Source: Elusimicrobiota bacterium (lineage in GTDB: Bacteria > Elusimicrobiota > Elusimicrobia > UBA1565). Taken from it: 36,913 nt of DNA. Positions 2,296-36,913 of this stretch are shown piece after piece. The position numbers were made by a program, and so were the translations under genes. The notes beneath the pieces are model-generated. The model ran no database searches and was not told the DNA's origin. It was given only the letters and a program-made list of their open reading frames with translations. The stretch spans positions 1-36,913 of the forward strand of contig JACPXC010000063.1 in the NCBI GenBank assembly GCA_016196755.1, in the 5' to 3' direction. Positions within the stretch are counted from its first letter, which is position 1; every line of letters starts with the position of its first letter.

Positions 2296-4386
2296 ATGAG
2301 GAGCGTCTTCTTCGCCCTCCTTCTCGTCGGGGCCGCGCTTCCCGCGCGCGCCCAGGTGGCGGTGGGCTGTACCTGCTACTGCGGCGCCCAGCTCAACCCG
2401 CCCTGCAGCGAGTCGGCCTGCAAGTCGGCCTGCGGCTACGGCGGAGGGAGCGGGGATACGGTCAATCCATACGGTCCCGCGAACATCGCCTGGGGCGGCA
2501 TGACCAAGCGCGCCCTCAACATGATCGAGGAGTGCGGTCCGAAGCCGGCCTGCCGTTTCATGCGCACCGGCGTCCTCATCCCGATGGGGCTCATGTGGGA
2601 CGGGCCGGTCTGGTTGGTCCGCGGTCTCGGCTACGGCCTCTATTACGGCGGAAAAGGCGTAGCATTCGTCGGGAAGGGGGTCGGCCGCGGCGTCAAGGCC
2701 GCGGGCTCGGCCCTGGCCAAGCCGTTTAGGCGCGAGATGGGGAAGCGGGCCGACGCGTCGCGGGCCGCCAGCGTCGAAGCGGCCGGCCTCTGTTCCTTGG
2801 CGTGGGGCGGCCGTTACCAGGACGCGGCCGAATGGGAGGCCTGCCGGAAGGCCATCCTGCGGCGGCAGCGCGCCGCCACGAAGCTGGTCCCGGCCAATCG
2901 GGAGACCGAGCGCTGGTGTAAGAAGAACATCCCCTTGTCGTCGGGGCCGCAGCGCTTTAACTGGGAGACGCGCTGCAATCCCGGAGTCTCCGCCGCCCTC
3001 ATCACGGCCCCGCTGAGCGACCCGCTGGGTGCGCCGTTGTCGACGAGCGCGGCTCGGCTCGACGCGCCTGGCAGGGCACGCCCCCCGGTCCCCGCCCCGG
3101 CCGCCGTCCCCGCTCCGGCCGCCATCCCCGCCACGGCCGCCGCCGCAGCCGGTTCGACGGAGGTGGAGCGCGTCGTGGAACCCGCCGCTCAGGCCGTCTC
3201 GGCTCCCGGCGGCACCATCGCCGGTGGGACTCCCGCTACAGCTCCCGAAGCCGGCCCCAAGCCCGTCGCGGGCCTGCGCGACCCCGCTTCGCTGGCGGGT
3301 ACTCCGGCCGAGGAGGCCAAGGCGGCCGCCTCGTCGGGCTTCGACGCCCAGGGTGCCATGCTCGGCCGGACCGGCCAAGCGCCGGCCATCTCGGCCGCCG
3401 CCGCTTCTGCCTCTGCCGCGCCGACCGGGGGAGCCGTTCGGGGCGCCGCCGCTCCGGCCGTCCAGAGGGCCGCCGCTCCGGCCGTCGCGGCTGAGGGGCC
3501 GCGGGCGGCTTCCGCCGTCGCCGCCTCCGTGATGGACTCGGTTCCGCCGCCCAGCCGTTCTTCGAGAGAACCCGTCCTCCCCCACCCCGCCGTCGCCCGC
3601 GGCAAGGCCAAGCTCGTCGGCGACCCCAAGCGATTCGCCGGCTCCTTCGACCTTCAGCAGGGCAACACCTGCGCCGTGGTCAGCATCGCCCAGCTCTTGA
3701 GCGCCTACGATCCGGACGGCCGGAAGGTCAATGAGATCTCCCAGAACCCGCTCTTCAGGGACGCCTTCGCGAACGGGTTTTTTCATGCCGAGTTCAGCTG
3801 CGACCAACCGGCGCCGCGCGACAACTGTCGCGCGTATTACAACCCCGACACCCGTAAGTGTTTCCTGGTCGACAAGAACGGCAAGCGAGCGGCCACGGAC
3901 TGGGACGAAGACGGCGCCGAGGTGATGGAGAGCGGCTACATCTGCGACGCGGCCCGCAGGGACGGCGGCATGACTCCGTCGGCGATCGGCGACTACCTGG
4001 CCCTGCGCTCGGGCCGCAAGGTCCACAACGGCTGGGTGCCCGCGATCGAGGACGAGCAGAAGGCGAAACTGTCCCCCGAGGCCTTGGCGCACGCCGAGGC
4101 GATCCGCGCGACGCATCTGCCGCGGGCCCGCGCCGAGGTCCTCGCCTCGCTCGAGAGGGGGAACGCCGTCATCGTCGCCTTGAGGCGTTCGAATCTTTGG
4201 TACAAGTCGGGTCCCCGCGGCCTCCATGCGGTCGTGGTGACGGCCGCCGTGGTCGGCACAGACGGCGCGCCGGCGGGCTTCTACATCAACGACAGTTCGA
4301 ACTACGAGCAGGGGCGCTTCCTGCCGATGGCGGAATTCGACCAGGCCTGGCTCGCCGACGACCTTCAGAGGGTATACATCGAATGA
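2296..4386 (+). CDS. secreted C39-like papain-fold cysteine peptidase domain protein
   Basis: The protein has 696 residues. A signal peptide ends near ALPARA (about residue 19). It is followed by a Cys-rich segment (VGCTCYCGAQLNPPCSESAC) and a Gly-rich hydrophobic stretch. A long Ala/Pro linker covers about 250-440. The C-terminal domain (about 445-696) has the layout of C39-like peptidases: C459 in QGNTCAVVSIAQLL, H644 in GLHAVVVTAAV and D666 (or N665) in FYINDSSNYEQ. I see this residue order directly; enzymatic activity is inferred. Expression is probably from a leaderless TATCCT promoter. The stop overlaps the next start (ATGA, 4383-4386), so the pair is translationally coupled. C39 enzymes commonly process double-glycine peptides, but no ABC transporter is fused or adjacent, so the substrate is unknown. 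Confidence 0.7.
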   Translation: MRSVFFALLLVGAALPARAQVAVGCTCYCGAQLNPPCSESACKSACGYGGGSGDTVNPYGPANIAWGGMTKRALNMIEECGPKPACRFMRTGVLIPMGLMWDGPVWLVRGLGYGLYYGGKGVAFVGKGVGRGVKAAGSALAKPFRREMGKRADASRAASVEAAGLCSLAWGGRYQDAAEWEACRKAILRRQRAATKLVPANRETERWCKKNIPLSSGPQRFNWETRCNPGVSAALITAPLSDPLGAPLSTSAARLDAPGRARPPVPAPAAVPAPAAIPATAAAAAGSTEVERVVEPAAQAVSAPGGTIAGGTPATAPEAGPKPVAGLRDPASLAGTPAEEAKAAASSGFDAQGAMLGRTGQAPAISAAAASASAAPTGGAVRGAAAPAVQRAAAPAVAAEGPRAASAVAASVMDSVPPPSRSSREPVLPHPAVARGKAKLVGDPKRFAGSFDLQQGNTCAVVSIAQLLSAYDPDGRKVNEISQNPLFRDAFANGFFHAEFSCDQPAPRDNCRAYYNPDTRKCFLVDKNGKRAATDWDEDGAEVMESGYICDAARRDGGMTPSAIGDYLALRSGRKVHNGWVPAIEDEQKAKLSPEALAHAEAIRATHLPRARAEVLASLERGNAVIVALRRSNLWYKSGPRGLHAVVVTAAVVGTDGAPAGFYINDSSNYEQGRFLPMAEFDQAWLADDLQRVYIE

Positions 4387-30628: not shown

Positions 30629-30883
30629 TCACGCCGCCGGCGGCAGGGTGCGGTGCGAGCCGTCGCAGTACGGCTTGTTCTTGGAGTGCTTGCAGCCGCA
30701 CCAGGCCACTTTTTTGCACTCGGCCAGCTCGACGATGACGGGGGTCATCCCTGTGCCGAGGCGGCCGTGGGAACCGTCGCAGTAGGGCTGTTTCTGGGAG
30801 TGGCCGCAGGAGCACCAGGCCTTCCGTCCGGGCTGTTCGTCGACGACGTAGGGCGCGCGCTGGGGGATGATAGGTTCGCTCAT
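30629..30883 (-). CDS. tandem CDGSH-type iron-sulfur protein
   Basis: The protein has 84 residues and two CDGSH [2Fe-2S] sites: C24, C26, C35, H39 (CSCGHSQKQPYCDGSH) and C62, C64, C73, H77 (CGCKHSKNKPYCDGSH). Both have the full 3Cys-1His ligand set. The size and tandem arrangement match prokaryotic type II CDGSH proteins, which are soluble and redox active. The ATG at 30883 follows a TATACT box (30890-30895) by exactly 6 nt. It is transcribed alone, next to the iron-related operon on the same strand. Confidence 0.92.
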   Translation of the reverse strand: MSEPIIPQRAPYVVDEQPGRKAWCSCGHSQKQPYCDGSHGRLGTGMTPVIVELAECKKVAWCGCKHSKNKPYCDGSHRTLPPAA

Positions 30884-30889
30884 GACCTC

Positions 30890-30895
30890 AGTATA
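30890..30895 (-). promoter_or_regulatory. leaderless -10 box (TATACT) of the CDGSH gene
   Basis: TATACT on the minus strand ends 6 nt before the ATG; GAGGTC lies between. GAGG could act as a very weak Shine-Dalgarno, but the -10 would place the transcript start at the ATG itself. Confidence 0.5.
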
Positions 30896-30961: not shown

Positions 30962-31618
30962 TCACCGCCCGGTCGACGGCGCGGCCAGGGCGATGTCGGC
31001 GTACCAGGCCTCGGCGCGGGCTCCGGTCTGGTCGGTGTCGGTCATGACGGCCACGCCGGCCAAGGGCGGGGGCGGCTCGCCGAAGAGCGCGGCGTAATCG
31101 GCCAGGAGGTCGCGCCGCTCCGCGGCCCAGGTCCCGGCCCCGGCGCTTCCCGAGCGGACGGCCAGCATGCGCACGCGGTCGGTGTAGGGATTGGGCCAGG
31201 AGGAGCCCGCGGGCTCATGCCCGGCCCAGACGTAGGCGATCCCGGCGTGGGGCGGGTACTCGCCGTAGAGCGCCTTTGCCAGCGCGTACTTGGCGCGCGT
31301 CCCGAGGCCCGCGCGCCGCGGTTCGTACCGGAACGTGACGTAGACCCGGGCGGCGAAGTCGTCGCCGTCCTTGGCCCGCTCGCCCGCGTGGACGAGCGGG
31401 GCGTTCACCTTCCAGCGCCAGCTCAGCACGGGTCGCTCCGCGGCGGGTCCCGAGAGGCGGAAGATCATGCCCGAGGAGGAGGCCGAGCTCACGGCATGGA
31501 AGGCGCCCTCGGCGTAGGCGTATTCGGTGGCGCGCTGGACCTTCTTGAAGCGCAGGGGCTCCCAGCCGGCGGCGCTGACGCTCGAGAGCACGACCAGCGC
31601 CGCGGCCGCGGCGCTCAT
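30962..31618 (-). CDS. exported DUF3047-like protein
   Basis: The protein has 218 residues. A short signal peptide (AAAALVVLSSVSAAG) is followed by a beta-rich domain with the DUF3047 pattern: PVLSWRWKVNAPLVHAGE, DGDDFAARVYVTF, AGIAYVWAGHEPAGSSWPNP and ADIALAA. The family is periplasmic and uncharacterised. Its ATG begins immediately after the stop of the upstream 4-TM gene. It is the last gene of the fur-headed operon, so a role in the same metal/redox function is inferred. Confidence 0.75.
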   Translation of the reverse strand: MSAAAAALVVLSSVSAAGWEPLRFKKVQRATEYAYAEGAFHAVSSASSSGMIFRLSGPAAERPVLSWRWKVNAPLVHAGERAKDGDDFAARVYVTFRYEPRRAGLGTRAKYALAKALYGEYPPHAGIAYVWAGHEPAGSSWPNPYTDRVRMLAVRSGSAGAGTWAAERRDLLADYAALFGEPPPPLAGVAVMTDTDQTGARAEAWYADIALAAPSTGR

Positions 31619-32140
31619 CTAGTGGTGCGCTCGGCGGTGATGGTGGGGGTGGGGCTTGTCGTCGCGCGCCGCCCTGAACAAGAAGAGGGCCAGGCCGGCG
31701 ATGAGGCCGCCGAGGACGCCTTGGAAGAGCAGGAAGGCCGCGACGCGCAGGGGCGCGAATGCGGGGTCGACGAAGCGGACCAGCCAGCCCGAGGATTCCT
31801 CCAGGATCGCCGACCCGAAAGCCAGCCAGGCGATGCGGGCCTTGGCCCGGTCGGAGAAGGGAGCGAAGATGACGAGATGAGTGAGCAGAAGGAGCACCAG
31901 CGCCATCATCGGCAAGTGGGCGTGGGCGGTCTCGAGCATGGACGCGTAGCTGCGCGGGTTGGAGAAGCCGTCCGGCGAGCCCAGGTAATAATCGCGCACC
32001 GAGGCCGGCGAGAGGCCCATGCGCTGGAAGTACATCGCAAAGCCCGTAAGCCAAAGGCCGGCCAGCATGGCCAGCGACAGGCCGAGCGTGAGCCGCATCG
32101 GGGCCTTGTGCTGGAAGCCGCCCTGCTGGAGATACTTCAT
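31619..32140 (-). CDS. four-helix membrane protein with membrane histidines and His-rich tail
   Basis: The protein has 173 residues. Hydrophobic helices lie at about 15-38, 72-93, 101-122 and 131-156. Helix 2 carries H73, H75 and H88 (ETAHAHLPMMALVLLLLTHL), placed as possible heme or metal ligands. The cytosolic or periplasmic C-terminus is DKPHPHHHRRAHH with six His. I do not recognise a named family. Its position between an FMN-binding protein and DUF3047 suggests an electron-transfer or metal-handling membrane subunit; heme binding is a hypothesis. It overlaps the FMN gene by ATGA. Confidence 0.7.
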   Translation of the reverse strand: MKYLQQGGFQHKAPMRLTLGLSLAMLAGLWLTGFAMYFQRMGLSPASVRDYYLGSPDGFSNPRSYASMLETAHAHLPMMALVLLLLTHLVIFAPFSDRAKARIAWLAFGSAILEESSGWLVRFVDPAFAPLRVAAFLLFQGVLGGLIAGLALFLFRAARDDKPHPHHHRRAHH

Positions 32141-32670
32141 TCGGTCTTCCCCGTGAGGACGGCATGCACGGCCAACAGACGTCGGGCCGAGTCGGAGAAG
32201 GCCGACGAGGTCAACGTCGCGCCGGTCTGGTTGCGCAAGAGCCCGCCGATGCGGAGGTCCCTGTCGAGCGGCCGGGCTTTGAGCTGGGCCAGCCAGCGCG
32301 CGCTGGCCCGATAGTCATCGGGCTCGTCGAAGGTCAGGACCTCGAGGAAGCGCAGGGTCCCGTCCGGCGCCACCGCGGCCATGACGGTGGCCGGCATGGT
32401 GCGCACGATGACCCGGTCGAAATAGGCCCAGCCGGCCGCCGCGCCGCTGGAGGTGCCGACATAATAGGTCCAGACTTTGGATTCCACCTTGGTCTTGGCC
32501 AGCGACTCCGCTCTCGCCACCTGCGCATCGGTGAGGTAGGCGGTCCTGCGCTCCACGGCCGCGCCCGCCGGGAAAGCCAAGCCCAACGCCTGCTTCTGGG
32601 AGAGCAGCAGGCGGGCCTGGCTTTCTCCGGCGCCCAGCAGCAGGGCGCTCAGCAGACCGAAGAGCGGCAT
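32137..32670 (-). CDS. exported FMN-binding domain protein (covalently flavinylated type)
   Basis: The protein has 177 residues with a signal peptide ending near ESQA. The C-terminal half is an FMN_bind domain (VIVRTMPATVMAAVAPDGTL, FDEPDDYRASARWLAQL). It ends in the attachment motif QTGATLTSSAF, where T152 corresponds to the threonine that ApbE esterifies to FMN in NqrC- and RnfG-type domains. apbE lies two genes upstream in the same operon. It therefore probably carries covalent FMN in the periplasm and relays electrons. It starts 3 nt after the porin stop. Confidence 0.85.
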   Translation of the reverse strand: MPLFGLLSALLLGAGESQARLLLSQKQALGLAFPAGAAVERRTAYLTDAQVARAESLAKTKVESKVWTYYVGTSSGAAAGWAYFDRVIVRTMPATVMAAVAPDGTLRFLEVLTFDEPDDYRASARWLAQLKARPLDRDLRIGGLLRNQTGATLTSSAFSDSARRLLAVHAVLTGKTE

Positions 32671-32673
32671 CGC

Positions 32674-33975
32674 CTAGAAAATATAGCCCATTCCGAGGTT
32701 GGTCTGCCCGACTCCCGTCAAGCCTTGGTCCTTCAGGAACTGATGGTCGAACTTCATGACGACCTGGCTCACGGGTTTGTAGCCCACACCGAGGGTATAC
32801 TCGGTGCGGCTGTTGGACGGGTTCTTGCGCCAGGCATGCGGCACGCCGGCCTGGGTGTCGTAGCGCTCGTAGCGCGCGAACGGCGTCAGCGACTGCCCCT
32901 TCGGGTTGGCGAACGGGGCAAGGACGTCGTAGGCGGCCTCCAGGTAGCCGCCGAACATCTTGGAGCCCACGGAGCCCGTGCCGCCGACGGCGTTGCCCTG
33001 GACGGCGTTGAGGCTGTCGACGTTCCCGATCTTGACCTCGGAATAGAGGCCGCGCAGCTCCGCGCCGCGCCAGGCCAGCTTGGCATGCGTCTCCCAGAGC
33101 GTCACCGGGACCGACGGCAGGCGCACCTGGCTCTGGTCGGCCTCGCCGACGTAGAGCGAGCCGCCCACCATCACGCCCTCCACCGGCGAGACGTCCAGGC
33201 GCGAGACCCACGCCGGGTCCTCGAGATAGCTCTTGGCCGCCGAGGAGCGTCCGTTGCGAAGGCCGCTGGCGGCGCTAAAGCCGGTCACGCCGGTGTCGGT
33301 GCCTGCCTGCAGGCCGCTGACCACGTAGCTCCGGTAGCTGAGCGGACCCCATTCGCCGAACAGGCCGGCGCCGTTCTCGCGCCAGGTGCTCGGGATGAGG
33401 TTGGTCTCGACGGAAGGGCGCTTCACGCCGTTGTAGGTGGTCGGCTCGTGGATCTCGTTGACGAGGCCCACCGGCATAAGCAAGACCCCCGCGCGGAAGG
33501 CCAGCGGATCGCCGAAGGGCTTGAAGTCGATGGCCGCCATCTCCACCGAGACCTCGCCGCGGGTCTTGCCGGTGCTGCCGTGCTCGAACTCGATCTCCGA
33601 GTTGAAGGTGATCCAGTCGTTGAATTTGTAGCCCACGTAGAGGATCGCGCGCACCATGTCGACGACGTCGCGCTTGCCGGCGCCGGTGCCGTTCTGTTTC
33701 TTGGGCTGGAAGTTCTCGTAGGCCATCTCGCCGTAGCCGCCGATCGAGACGCGCTTGGGGGCCTTGCCGTAGACCTTCGAGGCGGCCGGGCCCAAGCCCA
33801 GAACCGAGACGAGCTCGGGCTCGGCGGCCTCGCCGAGCTTAAGGCGCTCCACCTCGCCGGCCAGGGCCTCGATCTTGCGCTCGAGGTCTGCGACCTTGAC
33901 GTCGGTGCTCTGGGCCGCCAGCGGCGCGGCGGCCGCGCAGAACAGACAGGCGGTGAGGATCAGTCTTGCGTTCAT
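32674..33975 (-). CDS. OprO/OprP-like outer-membrane porin
   Basis: The protein has 433 residues. The start is the ATG at 33975, with AAGGAGA six bases upstream and an ATGA overlap with apbE. The signal peptide ends at AAPLAAQ, and a short coiled coil (VADLERKIEALAGEVERLKL) follows, as in many OprO/P-type porins. The barrel contains SIGGYGEMAYENF, ILYVGYKFNDWITFNSEIEF and EHGSTGKTRGEVSVEMAAID and ends in LGMGYIF with terminal Phe. OprO/P relatives pass phosphate or other anions; the operon suggests an iron-related solute here, which is inference. Confidence 0.82.
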   Translation of the reverse strand: MNARLILTACLFCAAAAPLAAQSTDVKVADLERKIEALAGEVERLKLGEAAEPELVSVLGLGPAASKVYGKAPKRVSIGGYGEMAYENFQPKKQNGTGAGKRDVVDMVRAILYVGYKFNDWITFNSEIEFEHGSTGKTRGEVSVEMAAIDFKPFGDPLAFRAGVLLMPVGLVNEIHEPTTYNGVKRPSVETNLIPSTWRENGAGLFGEWGPLSYRSYVVSGLQAGTDTGVTGFSAASGLRNGRSSAAKSYLEDPAWVSRLDVSPVEGVMVGGSLYVGEADQSQVRLPSVPVTLWETHAKLAWRGAELRGLYSEVKIGNVDSLNAVQGNAVGGTGSVGSKMFGGYLEAAYDVLAPFANPKGQSLTPFARYERYDTQAGVPHAWRKNPSNSRTEYTLGVGYKPVSQVVMKFDHQFLKDQGLTGVGQTNLGMGYIF

Positions 33976-34781
33976 GGCACTCTCCTTGGACAATGTCCGA
34001 ATCGTTCCGGCCGTCCACCCTCGTCGGACACCACGAGGGCGCAGCCCGGAAAATCGCGCGGCAGGGCCTTGGGACCGGCCGCGAAAAGCGCCGTGGACCA
34101 AGCGTCGGCCTCGGCGGCGGAGGGTAGGACGACCGTGGCGGAACCCGCTTTACGCGCCGGCCGCCAACTGCCGGGCGCTACGATGTGGCCAGGCTGCTCC
34201 GCATCTCCCGAGGTCGAGGCCGAGGCGTCGCGCAGCGGGAGCCGGGCCCCCGGCGTCTCCACCTCCCAGGCGCCTAGGGCGTAGACCTGCCCGCCGAAAT
34301 TGAGGAAGGCCGAGGAGATCCCTCTCGCGCGCAGCGCCGACGCCGCGGCGTCGAGGGCGTAGCCTTTGCCCACGCCGCCGAAGTCGAGCCGGGCGCCGGC
34401 GGGAAGCTCCACGCTCCGGGCGGAGGCGTCCAGGCGCAGGCGGCCGAAGCCGCGCGCGGGGGGAGAGGACGAGTAGGTCGGGTCGAACGCTCCCCCGCTG
34501 GCCGCCCAGACCGACGAGGACACCTGGAGGATGCTCCAGAGGTCGTCGGAAACCTTCACCGGGCCCGCGCCGGCGGCGCGGTTGAGGCGCGACACCTCGC
34601 TGCCATCCTTGAAAGTGCTCAGGAGGCGGTCGAGCCGCTCGACCTCGGCGAAGGCCGCGCCGCCGTCGTCTGCCGAGGTGATCTCGAGCAGGGTCCCCAT
34701 GACCCAGCGGGAGCGCGCCGCCGCGGAGGCGCCATTATTGATACGCAGTATCAATAGGAAGGCAAAAAAAACAGGCCTCAT
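33972..34781 (-). CDS. apbE: FAD:protein FMN transferase ApbE
   Basis: The protein has 269 residues. The ATG at 34781 overlaps the fur stop (ATGA). The signal peptide covers about residues 1-22. Family motifs are VMGTLLEIT near residue 28, ASGGAFDPTYSS (about 94-105), LDFGGVGKGYALDAAA (132-147) and the metal-binding DAWSTALFAAG (226-236, D226 and T230). ApbE uses FAD to attach FMN to Thr of exported flavoproteins; the target is probably the FMN-binding protein encoded two genes downstream. The length is slightly shorter than typical (about 300). A perfect palindrome lies in its signal-peptide codons. Confidence 0.92.
   Translation of the reverse strand: MRPVFFAFLLILRINNGASAAARSRWVMGTLLEITSADDGGAAFAEVERLDRLLSTFKDGSEVSRLNRAAGAGPVKVSDDLWSILQVSSSVWAASGGAFDPTYSSSPPARGFGRLRLDASARSVELPAGARLDFGGVGKGYALDAAASALRARGISSAFLNFGGQVYALGAWEVETPGARLPLRDASASTSGDAEQPGHIVAPGSWRPARKAGSATVVLPSAAEADAWSTALFAAGPKALPRDFPGCALVVSDEGGRPERFGHCPRRVP
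34736..34756. promoter_or_regulatory. perfect palindromic operator inside the 5' end of apbE
   Basis: Nine-base arms TATTGATAC and GTATCAATA flank GCA. The site lies 25 bp into apbE. It is AT-rich in a very GC-rich coding context, and the same sequence family recurs in front of fur. It is probably a binding site of the Fur-family protein encoded just upstream. Confidence 0.65.
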
Positions 34782-35248
34782 TCCTTTCCCCGGCATGTCC
34801 TGCAGCGTCCGAAGATCTCGTGGCGGTGCCAGGAGGGCTCGAAGCCCGCCTTCTGGCAGACGCGGTGCTGGATCTTCTCGAGCTTGGGCCAGCGCACCTC
34901 GGTGATGTCTCCGCAGACCGTGCAGATCAAGTGGTCGTGGTGGGGGCGCTCCAGGTTCACCTCGAAGCGCGCGGCGCCCTGAGGGCCGGAGACTCGGCTC
35001 ACCAGGTCGGATTCGAGCAGCACCTTGAGGGTCCTGAACACCGTGGCCCGGCCTACGCCGGCGGCTCCCAGCGCTTTCAATATCTCATCGATCGATACGT
35101 GACGGTCGGCTGCGAGCAGGAAATCCAGGATGGCGGCGCGCTGGCTAGTCAGGCGCAGCCCGCGCTTGGAGAGCTGGTCGGCGAATACCTCGCGCGCGCG
35201 GGCGACGTAGCCGGAACGGCCGGGCAGGAAGCGGAGCTTGTCGGGCAT
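34778..35248 (-). CDS. Fur-family metal-dependent repressor
   Basis: The protein has 156 residues. The winged helix has LRLTSQRAAILDFLL, HVSIDEILKAL and GRATVFRTLKVLLES. The metal-binding dimerisation domain has RPHHDHLICTVCG (H103, H104, D105, H106), with zinc pairs C109/C112 and C149/C152. Within the superfamily (Fur, Zur, PerR, Mur) the residues do not settle the metal; Fur or PerR are most likely. It heads the operon with apbE, the porin and the FMN-binding protein. An operator-like palindrome lies directly upstream, implying autoregulation. Confidence 0.9.
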   Translation of the reverse strand: MPDKLRFLPGRSGYVARAREVFADQLSKRGLRLTSQRAAILDFLLAADRHVSIDEILKALGAAGVGRATVFRTLKVLLESDLVSRVSGPQGAARFEVNLERPHHDHLICTVCGDITEVRWPKLEKIQHRVCQKAGFEPSWHRHEIFGRCRTCRGKE

Positions 35249-35252
35249 TTAT

Positions 35253-35299
35253 TATTGATACCGAGTCTCATTAATGTATATCCCGAACGCGCTTGTCAA
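35253..35299 (-). promoter_or_regulatory. promoter and operator of the fur-headed operon
   Basis: Operator: TATTGATAC-CGA-GTCTCATTA on the plus strand (35253-35273) shares the complete left arm and 7 of 9 right-arm bases with the palindrome inside apbE. Promoter (minus strand): TTGACA at 35294-35299, with AT-rich -10 sequence TATACATT at about 35273-35280; TACATT gives a 15-bp spacer, shorter than ideal. The operator lies at and just downstream of the -10, so binding would block initiation. Position 35249 onward leads directly into the fur ATG without a Shine-Dalgarno. Confidence 0.6.
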
Positions 35300-35301
35300 G
35301 T

Positions 35302-36913
35302 TCAGAACGCGAAGCTGGGGTCGCGTGCCGTTTGGCCGGCGCCGAGCAAGGACGGCCCGCGCGCGGCGGCCAGGGCGAAGAGCCACAGCGCCACGAGGGC
35401 GGGCAGCACCGGCGAGGCGGGGAGCGGGGGGTGCGCCGGCTTCGACGGCGCGGCCGCGGCGGCCTTGCCGGCGGGCGGAGTCGTCGAGGGAACCGCGGCC
35501 GCCGAGAGCGCCGAGCTCCGGCTGTCGTCGACGGTAGGGCGCGGCGGGGCCACGGCCAGCTTGCGCAGGGCCTGGGTGTCGCGGGCGGAATCGTTGGTCT
35601 CGGCCGCGGCGGTGCGGACCTGGAGCGACTCTCGCTCCCAGGACGGGGCCGGAGCGAAGGAGGCGTCGGGCGCCGATCGGGCAGCCGCGAGGAGGGCGGG
35701 GGCGGCAAGCGCGGCGACCGTCGAGGGCGCTTCGCGAGCGGCGGGTTCCTGGGCGTCGTCGTAGACGATGGTCGACTCCTCGAGGTGCTGCAGCGACGAG
35801 GCCGGGCTCTCAAGCGGTTCGGCGAGGTCGGAGCCGATGAAGGCGGGGGCTTGGGTCAGCTCGAGCGGCTGGGGAGCGGCGGCGTGCGTGTCAACGCGGA
35901 CGGGAGAAGGCGAGGCGGCGCCAAGAGCCTGCGGGGCCGAGACGACGGCGACGGCCGCGGCGGGTGCAGTGGGCTCAGTGGCCGTTACCTCGGCGGGGTG
36001 CATCGAATCGACGAACTGCGTCATCGACGGCGGTTGGGAGAAGAGCTGGGCGGCCCCGGCCAGGATCGGCGCCACGCCGGCGGTAAATGACGGGACGAGC
36101 TGGCGCGGAGCCGGAGCGAGCGGCGCCGCGGGCCGGGTCGGGGATGCCGCCGCCGTCTGTTGGGCGGCAGGCGCGCTCGGAGCGACTGGAGCGGATCGAC
36201 TGACGCTCGACGGCATGGCGGCGGGGGCGTCCTCCAGCCCAACGGCTGCGATCGGCGTCGGGGCTCGGCCAGGGGTTCGGCGGACGATCCTTCGCGGCGC
36301 GCTCCGGGGAGGCGCGTCGGGAGTCGCGGCGCTGACGCGGTCGGAAGACGGGGTCCATGACGGCAGGGCGGGAGCCTGGGGAAGAGCGGTCGCCGGGACG
36401 GCGGCAACGGCGCTAGTCGGGTCGAAGGCCGCGCGCTCGCCCGGCGGTTGGATGGCGGCCGGAGGCGCGGCCGGGGCCATACTGGTCACCGGCTGGGTGT
36501 TCTCCACGGCGACCAAGGTCGGCGTCTTTTGGCCGGCGGACTGCGGGACGGAGCCGGCGATCAAGTCGAGCAGGCGCGGCAGGGCCTCTACGATCTTGGC
36601 GATGAGCGGCGCGGCGGCGGCGGCCAGGCCGGGCATGAGTTGGGACGTGGGTTCGGTCATGCGTGTGACGGGGGCGGAGCGGGCGATGCTGACATTCGCG
36701 GGTGAATTCGAGACGGCGCGCTGCGGGGCCTGGGCCAGGCTGGAAGCGGGAGCGGCGTTAGTGATCGTCGCATCGGCCGGCGCCATGCGGGTGACGGGCG
36801 CGGCATTGCGGCCGGCGACCAGGGAGCTCTGAGGCGCGGTCTGACCTGCGGGTCTCGGAGCGCTGGCGCCGGAGCGGGCTACGCTGACATTCGCCGGCGA
36901 ATTCGAGACGGCG
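35302..36913 (-). CDS. Ala/Pro-rich repeat protein with C-terminal membrane helix (5' partial)
   Basis: The frame is open to the window edge, so at least 536 residues are encoded and the N-terminus is missing. Most of the chain is low-complexity Ala/Pro/Ser/Thr with scattered charged patches (SSLQHLEESTIVYDDAQE). A repeated block occurs twice: AVSNSPANVS followed by V/I-ARS, and APVTRM. Near the C-terminus a hydrophobic helix (VLPALVALWLFALAAA) is followed by RG and a short tail ending FAF. It looks like an envelope-anchored extended protein, comparable in composition to TonB-like or periplasm-spanning linkers. No catalytic domain visible. Confidence 0.65.
   Translation of the reverse strand, partial: AVSNSPANVSVARSGASAPRPAGQTAPQSSLVAGRNAAPVTRMAPADATITNAAPASSLAQAPQRAVSNSPANVSIARSAPVTRMTEPTSQLMPGLAAAAAPLIAKIVEALPRLLDLIAGSVPQSAGQKTPTLVAVENTQPVTSMAPAAPPAAIQPPGERAAFDPTSAVAAVPATALPQAPALPSWTPSSDRVSAATPDAPPRSAPRRIVRRTPGRAPTPIAAVGLEDAPAAMPSSVSRSAPVAPSAPAAQQTAAASPTRPAAPLAPAPRQLVPSFTAGVAPILAGAAQLFSQPPSMTQFVDSMHPAEVTATEPTAPAAAVAVVSAPQALGAASPSPVRVDTHAAAPQPLELTQAPAFIGSDLAEPLESPASSLQHLEESTIVYDDAQEPAAREAPSTVAALAAPALLAAARSAPDASFAPAPSWERESLQVRTAAAETNDSARDTQALRKLAVAPPRPTVDDSRSSALSAAAVPSTTPPAGKAAAAAPSKPAHPPLPASPVLPALVALWLFALAAARGPSLLGAGQTARDPSFAF
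36676..36913. repeat. imperfect 43-bp direct repeat inside the Ala/Pro-rich gene
   Basis: Positions 36676-36718 and 36871-36913 match at 39 of 43 bases, encoding AVSNSPANVSIARS and AVSNSPANVSVARS on the minus strand. More copies may lie beyond the window edge. Confidence 0.75.

Follow-up and report, generated by a model that had tools for sequence, protein, structure and literature searches.

A probable iron-repressed, flavin-based ferric reductase operon with an unnamed four-helix membrane partner in an Elusimicrobiota bacterium

A compact operon on contig JACPXC010000063.1 of an Elusimicrobiota bacterium (assembly GCA_016196755.1) raises the question of which process unites a Fur-family regulator, a flavin transferase, a porin and a predicted flavoprotein. 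The window, i.e. the whole stretch of DNA analyzed here, comprises 36,913 nucleotides and is one contig of a 4.59-Mb genome. Six open reading frames, all on the minus strand, follow each other in the order fur-apbE-porin-FMN-binding protein-four-helix membrane protein-DUF3047 (FMN, flavin mononucleotide), and the successive junctions from fur to DUF3047 are a 19-nt overlap, a 4-nt overlap, a 3-nt gap, a 4-nt overlap and a 0-nt gap. These coordinates agree with the genes, the order and the tight coupling on one strand listed in the first-pass annotation, which had also proposed a metal-regulated, flavinylated redox or metal-acquisition system of the cell envelope. That idea finds support, and the sole fur gene, the operators and the linkage to FeoB described below allow the metal to be specified as iron, while the gene set has to be revised. 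Judging from the sequence, the operon is likely to encode a flavin-based ferric reductase that is repressed by iron and serves its assimilation.

Which of the six genes belong together becomes apparent from other genomes. Among 57 related genomes searched at the protein level, 23 yielded the FMN-binding protein, and the order apbE-porin-FMN-binding protein-four-helix protein is the same in most of these. An alignment scan of 84,980 species for the four-helix protein led to 247 confirmed loci, of which the best 80 were kept; the scan pattern was derived from the four-helix protein, and the linkage counts describe the kept loci and are not unbiased frequencies. The kept loci span about nine phyla, with hosts among Elusimicrobiota, KSB1, Calditrichota, Ignavibacteria and another Bacteroidota genome, Acidobacteriota, Latescibacterota, Nitrospiria, Deltaproteobacteria/Polyangiaceae and Methylococcales. 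The gene for the FMN-binding protein adjoins that for the four-helix protein in all 77 kept loci whose sequence extends far enough to show it (median gap 0); a porin gene lies upstream of this pair in 64 of 66. Linked apbE genes are located upstream in Elusimicrobiota and Acidobacteriota and downstream in Ignavibacteria, and where the module lacks a linked copy, apbE is present elsewhere in 17 of the 18 genomes tested. Linkage of fur is seen in only some families of relatives and that of DUF3047 is confined to the genus of the window. The conserved core is a set of porin, FMN-binding protein and four-helix membrane protein, with ApbE encoded nearby or elsewhere, and fur and especially DUF3047 are peripheral to the module. 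The first-pass annotation had treated all six genes as one unit. Such a unit is ruled out by the genus-restricted linkage of DUF3047 and by the lack of an operator near its unlinked copies; what persists of the proposed neighborhood across genomes is the core, often joined by apbE.

The regulator gene (34778-35248, minus strand; PF01475, 3e-28) encodes a Fur-family iron regulator and is the only gene of this family found in a whole-genome search. A putative Fur-box-like operator, the 19-bp palindrome ATTGATACnnnGTATCAAT (35254-35272, two mismatches), is situated 5 nt ahead of the fur ATG, between the start codon and the candidate -10 element, which meets the operator. The candidate sigma-70 promoter, as read from the sequence, occupies positions 35271-35299 on the minus strand (TTGACA at 35294-35299, a 17-bp spacer and CATTAA at 35271-35276). 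A second putative operator, a perfect palindrome, resides within the signal-peptide codons of apbE (34737-34755). Both operators are found at the same places in two sister species, the first at position 3869 of L057 and 1486 of L058 and the second at 4383 and 2003, respectively, and TTGAC[AG] is conserved there as well. The palindrome retained at this place within apbE of the sister species may allow fur to be controlled independently of the remaining genes of the operon.

Which metal is sensed is indicated by the other occurrences of the operator. Across the 4.6-Mb genome the pattern returned six sites with up to three mismatches, while a reversed control pattern returned none. Four sites lie outside the operon: one flanks a gene for a cytochrome c-FTR1 iron permease with ferritin nearby, one flanks an IucA/IucC siderophore synthetase gene together with a major facilitator superfamily transporter gene, and two flank a tonB gene with a TonB-dependent receptor gene behind it. 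In distant relatives, similar sites occur just ahead of the first gene of the operon, be fur linked or not. In relatives, 26 kb of start zones contain 15 operator-like sites, compared with 6 in the other 836 kb (binomial p 8e-19, uncorrected for relatedness; the zones were delimited once the sites had first been inspected). Furthermore, FeoB neighbors the module in 14 of the 80 kept loci, at differing positions and in different phyla, where a rough estimate that assumes one to two feoB genes in 4 Mb predicts fewer than one by chance. In KSB1 and Caldithrix it follows the module, in Ignavibacteria it mostly precedes it, and in one Elusimicrobium it stands ahead of apbE. A further neighbor, in four KSB1 loci, is a member of a DtxR-like repressor family; FeoB is likewise present in three of these loci. 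The sole Fur gene, the operators common to FTR1, siderophore and TonB loci and the FeoB linkage elsewhere thus point at iron as the regulating metal, and control by zinc, manganese or peroxide is ruled out by the content of the regulon. At the level of sequence, the FUR domain together with an iron regulon of putative operators identifies the regulator as a Fur iron repressor, and the operators shared with iron loci place the module under iron-dependent control.

Two details of the iron genes may be added. The cytochrome c-FTR1 fusion (L152, 918-2912) directly follows a perfect operator, and the ferritin gene lies on the opposite strand at a distance of about 400 bp. On L155 (2514-5022), the gene behind feoB encodes a fusion of a DtxR-type metal-binding domain with FeoA, a second type of iron regulator in this genome.

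How would such a system move electrons? The second gene (33972-34796, minus strand) encodes an ApbE FAD:protein FMN transferase (FAD, flavin adenine dinucleotide) with a signal peptide, matching PF02424 with 148 bits against a curated cut-off of 25.6 (4e-43); it is the only gene with this domain in the genome. Weak NqrB/RnfD-like matches occur elsewhere in the genome, and we therefore make no claim of an ApbE dedicated to one substrate. The candidate substrate is a secreted, RnfG/NqrC-like protein with an FMN-binding domain (32137-32670, minus strand), which carries a signal peptide and, by eye, no lipobox. Its own match to FMN_bind stays below the cut-off (15.7 bits versus 22, E 0.025), whereas PF04205 is recognized in 19 of 26 relatives, and a PDB search with the family profile retrieves RnfG with an E-value of 1e-4. 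The attachment motif T149-G150-A151-T152 is present as part of TGATLT, and GA[ST] is conserved in the family. Both the domain, recognized through the relatives and the RnfG match, and the [S/T]GA[S/T] motif are therefore in place, in line with the earlier identification, and motif and family predict flavinylation by ApbE at T152. Some Elusimicrobiota genomes contain in addition divergent paralogues of the protein (L050-L054) in which the GA[ST] attachment motif is lost.

The porin gene (32674-33975, minus strand, starting with the ATG at 33975) encodes 433 amino acids, for which no Pfam match was obtained at E 1, including none to Porin_O_P (PF07396), and a PDB sequence search with the porin profile gave nothing credible. 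The OprO/P-like character suggested in the first-pass annotation is nevertheless apparent from the predicted fold, a 16-stranded outer-membrane barrel with an N-terminal coiled helix (AlphaFold2, mean predicted local distance difference test score, pLDDT, 87.8). Its best fold matches are OprO (Z 27.5) and OprP (Z 27.3; VIA-align), about three units above the next porins; with 14-15% identity the likeness is established for the fold only. The protein lacks a PF12094 match and an [S/T]GA[S/T] motif, the features of the flavinylated outer-membrane proteins of the DUF3570 type. OprO and OprP favor small anions, and the modeled likeness makes passage of ferric citrate-like chelates plausible. The combination of a porin with a periplasmic redox protein generally recalls porin-cytochrome conduits, and many hosts are groundwater and sediment bacteria, so one might picture a respiratory (dissimilatory) metal-reducing or extracellular electron transfer system in which the porin is part of an outer-membrane conduit. 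We regard this as highly improbable, given that the barrel is an ordinary OprO/OprP-like one with 16 strands and not a large conduit, that none of the recurrent neighbors looked at was recognized as a multiheme cytochrome family, and that assimilation is indicated by the Fur-type operators, which siderophore and TonB genes have as well.

The four-helix inner-membrane protein (31619-32140, minus strand) is the least familiar component. Its structural model (pLDDT 90.5) comprises helices at residues 13-40, 65-91, 97-124 and 126-160, and no variation is seen among 72 sequences at E70, H73, H75, T87, H88, E115, W119, R122 and F123. The four helices and the histidine in helix 2 named in the first-pass annotation are thus retained, with three invariant histidines (H73, H75 and H88) in that helix. 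The His-rich tail it had also pointed out is present; it is limited to the genus and, not being conserved, is ruled out as a functional feature. According to the positive-inside rule, both termini are cytoplasmic, H73/H75 and most of the other invariant polar residues are located on the periplasmic side, where the FMN-binding protein would dock, and H88 lies on the cytoplasmic side. With 15 residues from H73 to H88, the two are calculated to lie about 22 angstrom from each other on one face of the helix, a spacing that resembles that of heme pairs in b-type cytochromes. When the 72 members were scanned against Pfam, no family common to them emerged, and at E 0.05 none contained the partner domains DUF4405 (PF14358), MsrQ-like (PF01794), PepSY-like (PF03929/PF16357), NapH-like (PF12801) or NqrB/RnfD (PF03116). 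A PDB sequence search with the family profile yielded nothing credible, and a fold search retrieved generic helical bundles only, which neither identify nor exclude a cytochrome fold.

Taken together, the observations are best explained by the following sequence of events. Upon iron shortage, Fe-Fur would leave the operators at the fur promoter and the apbE start. Secreted ApbE would attach FMN to T152 of the secreted FMN-binding protein, and the porin would let small ferric chelates into the periplasm. The four-helix protein would be fed with electrons by a cytoplasmic donor or the quinol pool and probably pass them across the inner membrane to FMN, most likely via one or two b hemes, with H73/H75 as ligands close to the periplasmic face and H88 as ligand close to the cytoplasmic one. 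It may form a homodimer that supplies the second heme ligands, as proposed likewise for FezC (PMC11334425). The FMN-binding protein would then reduce Fe(III) to Fe(II), which would enter through FeoB or the FTR1 permease, with DUF3047 acting as an accessory.

Several points weigh against this proposal. In the FMN-binding protein of the window, the upstream Asp of the classical ApbE motif Dxx[ST]GA[ST] is replaced by Arg, and FeoB of this genome is encoded outside the operon without a matching operator. The four-helix protein has no detectable relative among the known cytochromes, the case for heme being made by the conserved histidines, and its E-H-H-E cluster could bind a metal instead. It might accordingly be an iron-binding or iron-moving subunit with a periplasmic metal site formed by E70, H73, H75 and E115, and the FMN-binding protein would receive its electrons from another source. 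The invariant E-x-x-H-x-H plus E115 indeed resembles a metal site, and an FTR1 iron permease stands under the same operator in this genome. Yet the invariance extends to H88 on the cytoplasmic side, a transporter is often encoded next door in the form of FeoB, and the constant pairing with the FMN-binding protein fits an electron donor better; we therefore consider a metal-handling subunit unlikely. A further objection to a ferric reductase comes from Methylococcales, whose copies lack adjoining fur, feoB and apbE genes; three of them adjoin a gene for a MauG/CCP-like di-heme protein. On account of the missing iron linkage and these neighbors the electron acceptor may differ in this order, and one could extend the argument to a module that generally reduces another substrate, such as copper or an oxidized periplasmic protein, with iron control being incidental. 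That appears very unlikely because linkage to FeoB, DtxR-like repressors or Fur and the operators recur in several unrelated phyla. The three copies are those of Methylobacter (L109, L112 and L125), in which the di-heme protein gene is located inside or just past the module.

Ferric reduction by a flavinylated envelope protein has precedents. In a survey of flavinylation-associated transmembrane systems (PMC8238504), NapH-, MsrQ-, PepSY-, DsbD- and NQR/RNF-like partners are described, to which DUF4405/FezC was later added (PMC11334425). The former systems also combine an ApbE-flavinylated secreted protein with an inner-membrane electron donor, several are linked to iron transport, and the PepSY-like ones are Fur-repressed (PMC8238504). 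In contrast, the partner described here has four helices without those Pfam domains, carries three histidines in a single helix and always adjoins the FMN-binding protein, accompanied by a dedicated porin. DUF4405/FezC proteins resemble it as small membrane proteins with conserved histidines encoded beside flavinylation genes or ferrous iron transporters, and FezC is thought to form heme sites by homodimerization (PMC11334425); DUF4405 differs, however, in having six transmembrane helices and four histidines, and the 72 members analyzed here gave no Pfam DUF4405 match and no homology to it was found. P19/FTR1 iron assimilation likewise involves a protein with an FMN-binding domain that is encoded in an iron uptake locus (PMC8238504), whereas no P19 is seen in our operon and FTR1 is encoded at a separate locus under the same operator. 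FsrB of Bradyrhizobium (PMC10760861) reduces ferric siderophores in the periplasm and feeds Fe(II) import by FeoAB; the gene set is different here, and the likeness lies in the overall logic. For the porin, a study from 2004 reported Fur boxes ahead of hypothetical porins in Geobacter and Desulfuromonas, some beside feoAB and one weakly similar to phosphate-selective porins (PMC545781). No FMN-binding protein or four-helix partner was described there, and these porins provide an independent hint of iron-controlled porins by analogy.

By Pfam, the four-helix partner matches none of the classes of flavinylation-associated membrane electron carriers published in PMC8238504 and PMC11334425, and it was presumably left unassigned because the surveys relied on Pfam and KEGG names. 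Chances seem about even that it represents a new family of transmembrane carriers, probably homodimeric and holding its heme or hemes on histidines of a single helix, and that with porin and FMN-binding protein it makes up an iron-assimilation reductase of about nine phyla that is invisible to Pfam-based flavinylation surveys. Flavinylated ferric reductases are known as an idea, and membrane partners are known for a few families only. What is added here is a widespread, unnamed membrane partner that always travels with its FMN-binding protein. One genetic unit would link outer-membrane entry, periplasmic reduction and ferrous import, and hundreds of hypothetical proteins, from uncultured lineages as well as culturable methanotrophs, would gain a function that can be tested.

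The last gene of the operon (30962-31618, minus strand; PF11249, 9e-69) is a lineage-specific addition. DUF3047 and the module co-occur in 12 of 15 genomes (Fisher p 1e-4), a value confounded by relatedness, and a literature search on DUF3047 and on such modules in methanotrophs returned nothing useful. About 77 nt past this gene, a twin-CDGSH iron-sulfur protein is encoded on the same strand (30629-30892), a linkage absent from the sister species. On the other flank, positions 35302-36912 are taken up by an Ala/Pro/Ser-rich, repetitive long open frame without Pfam match that runs off the contig end.

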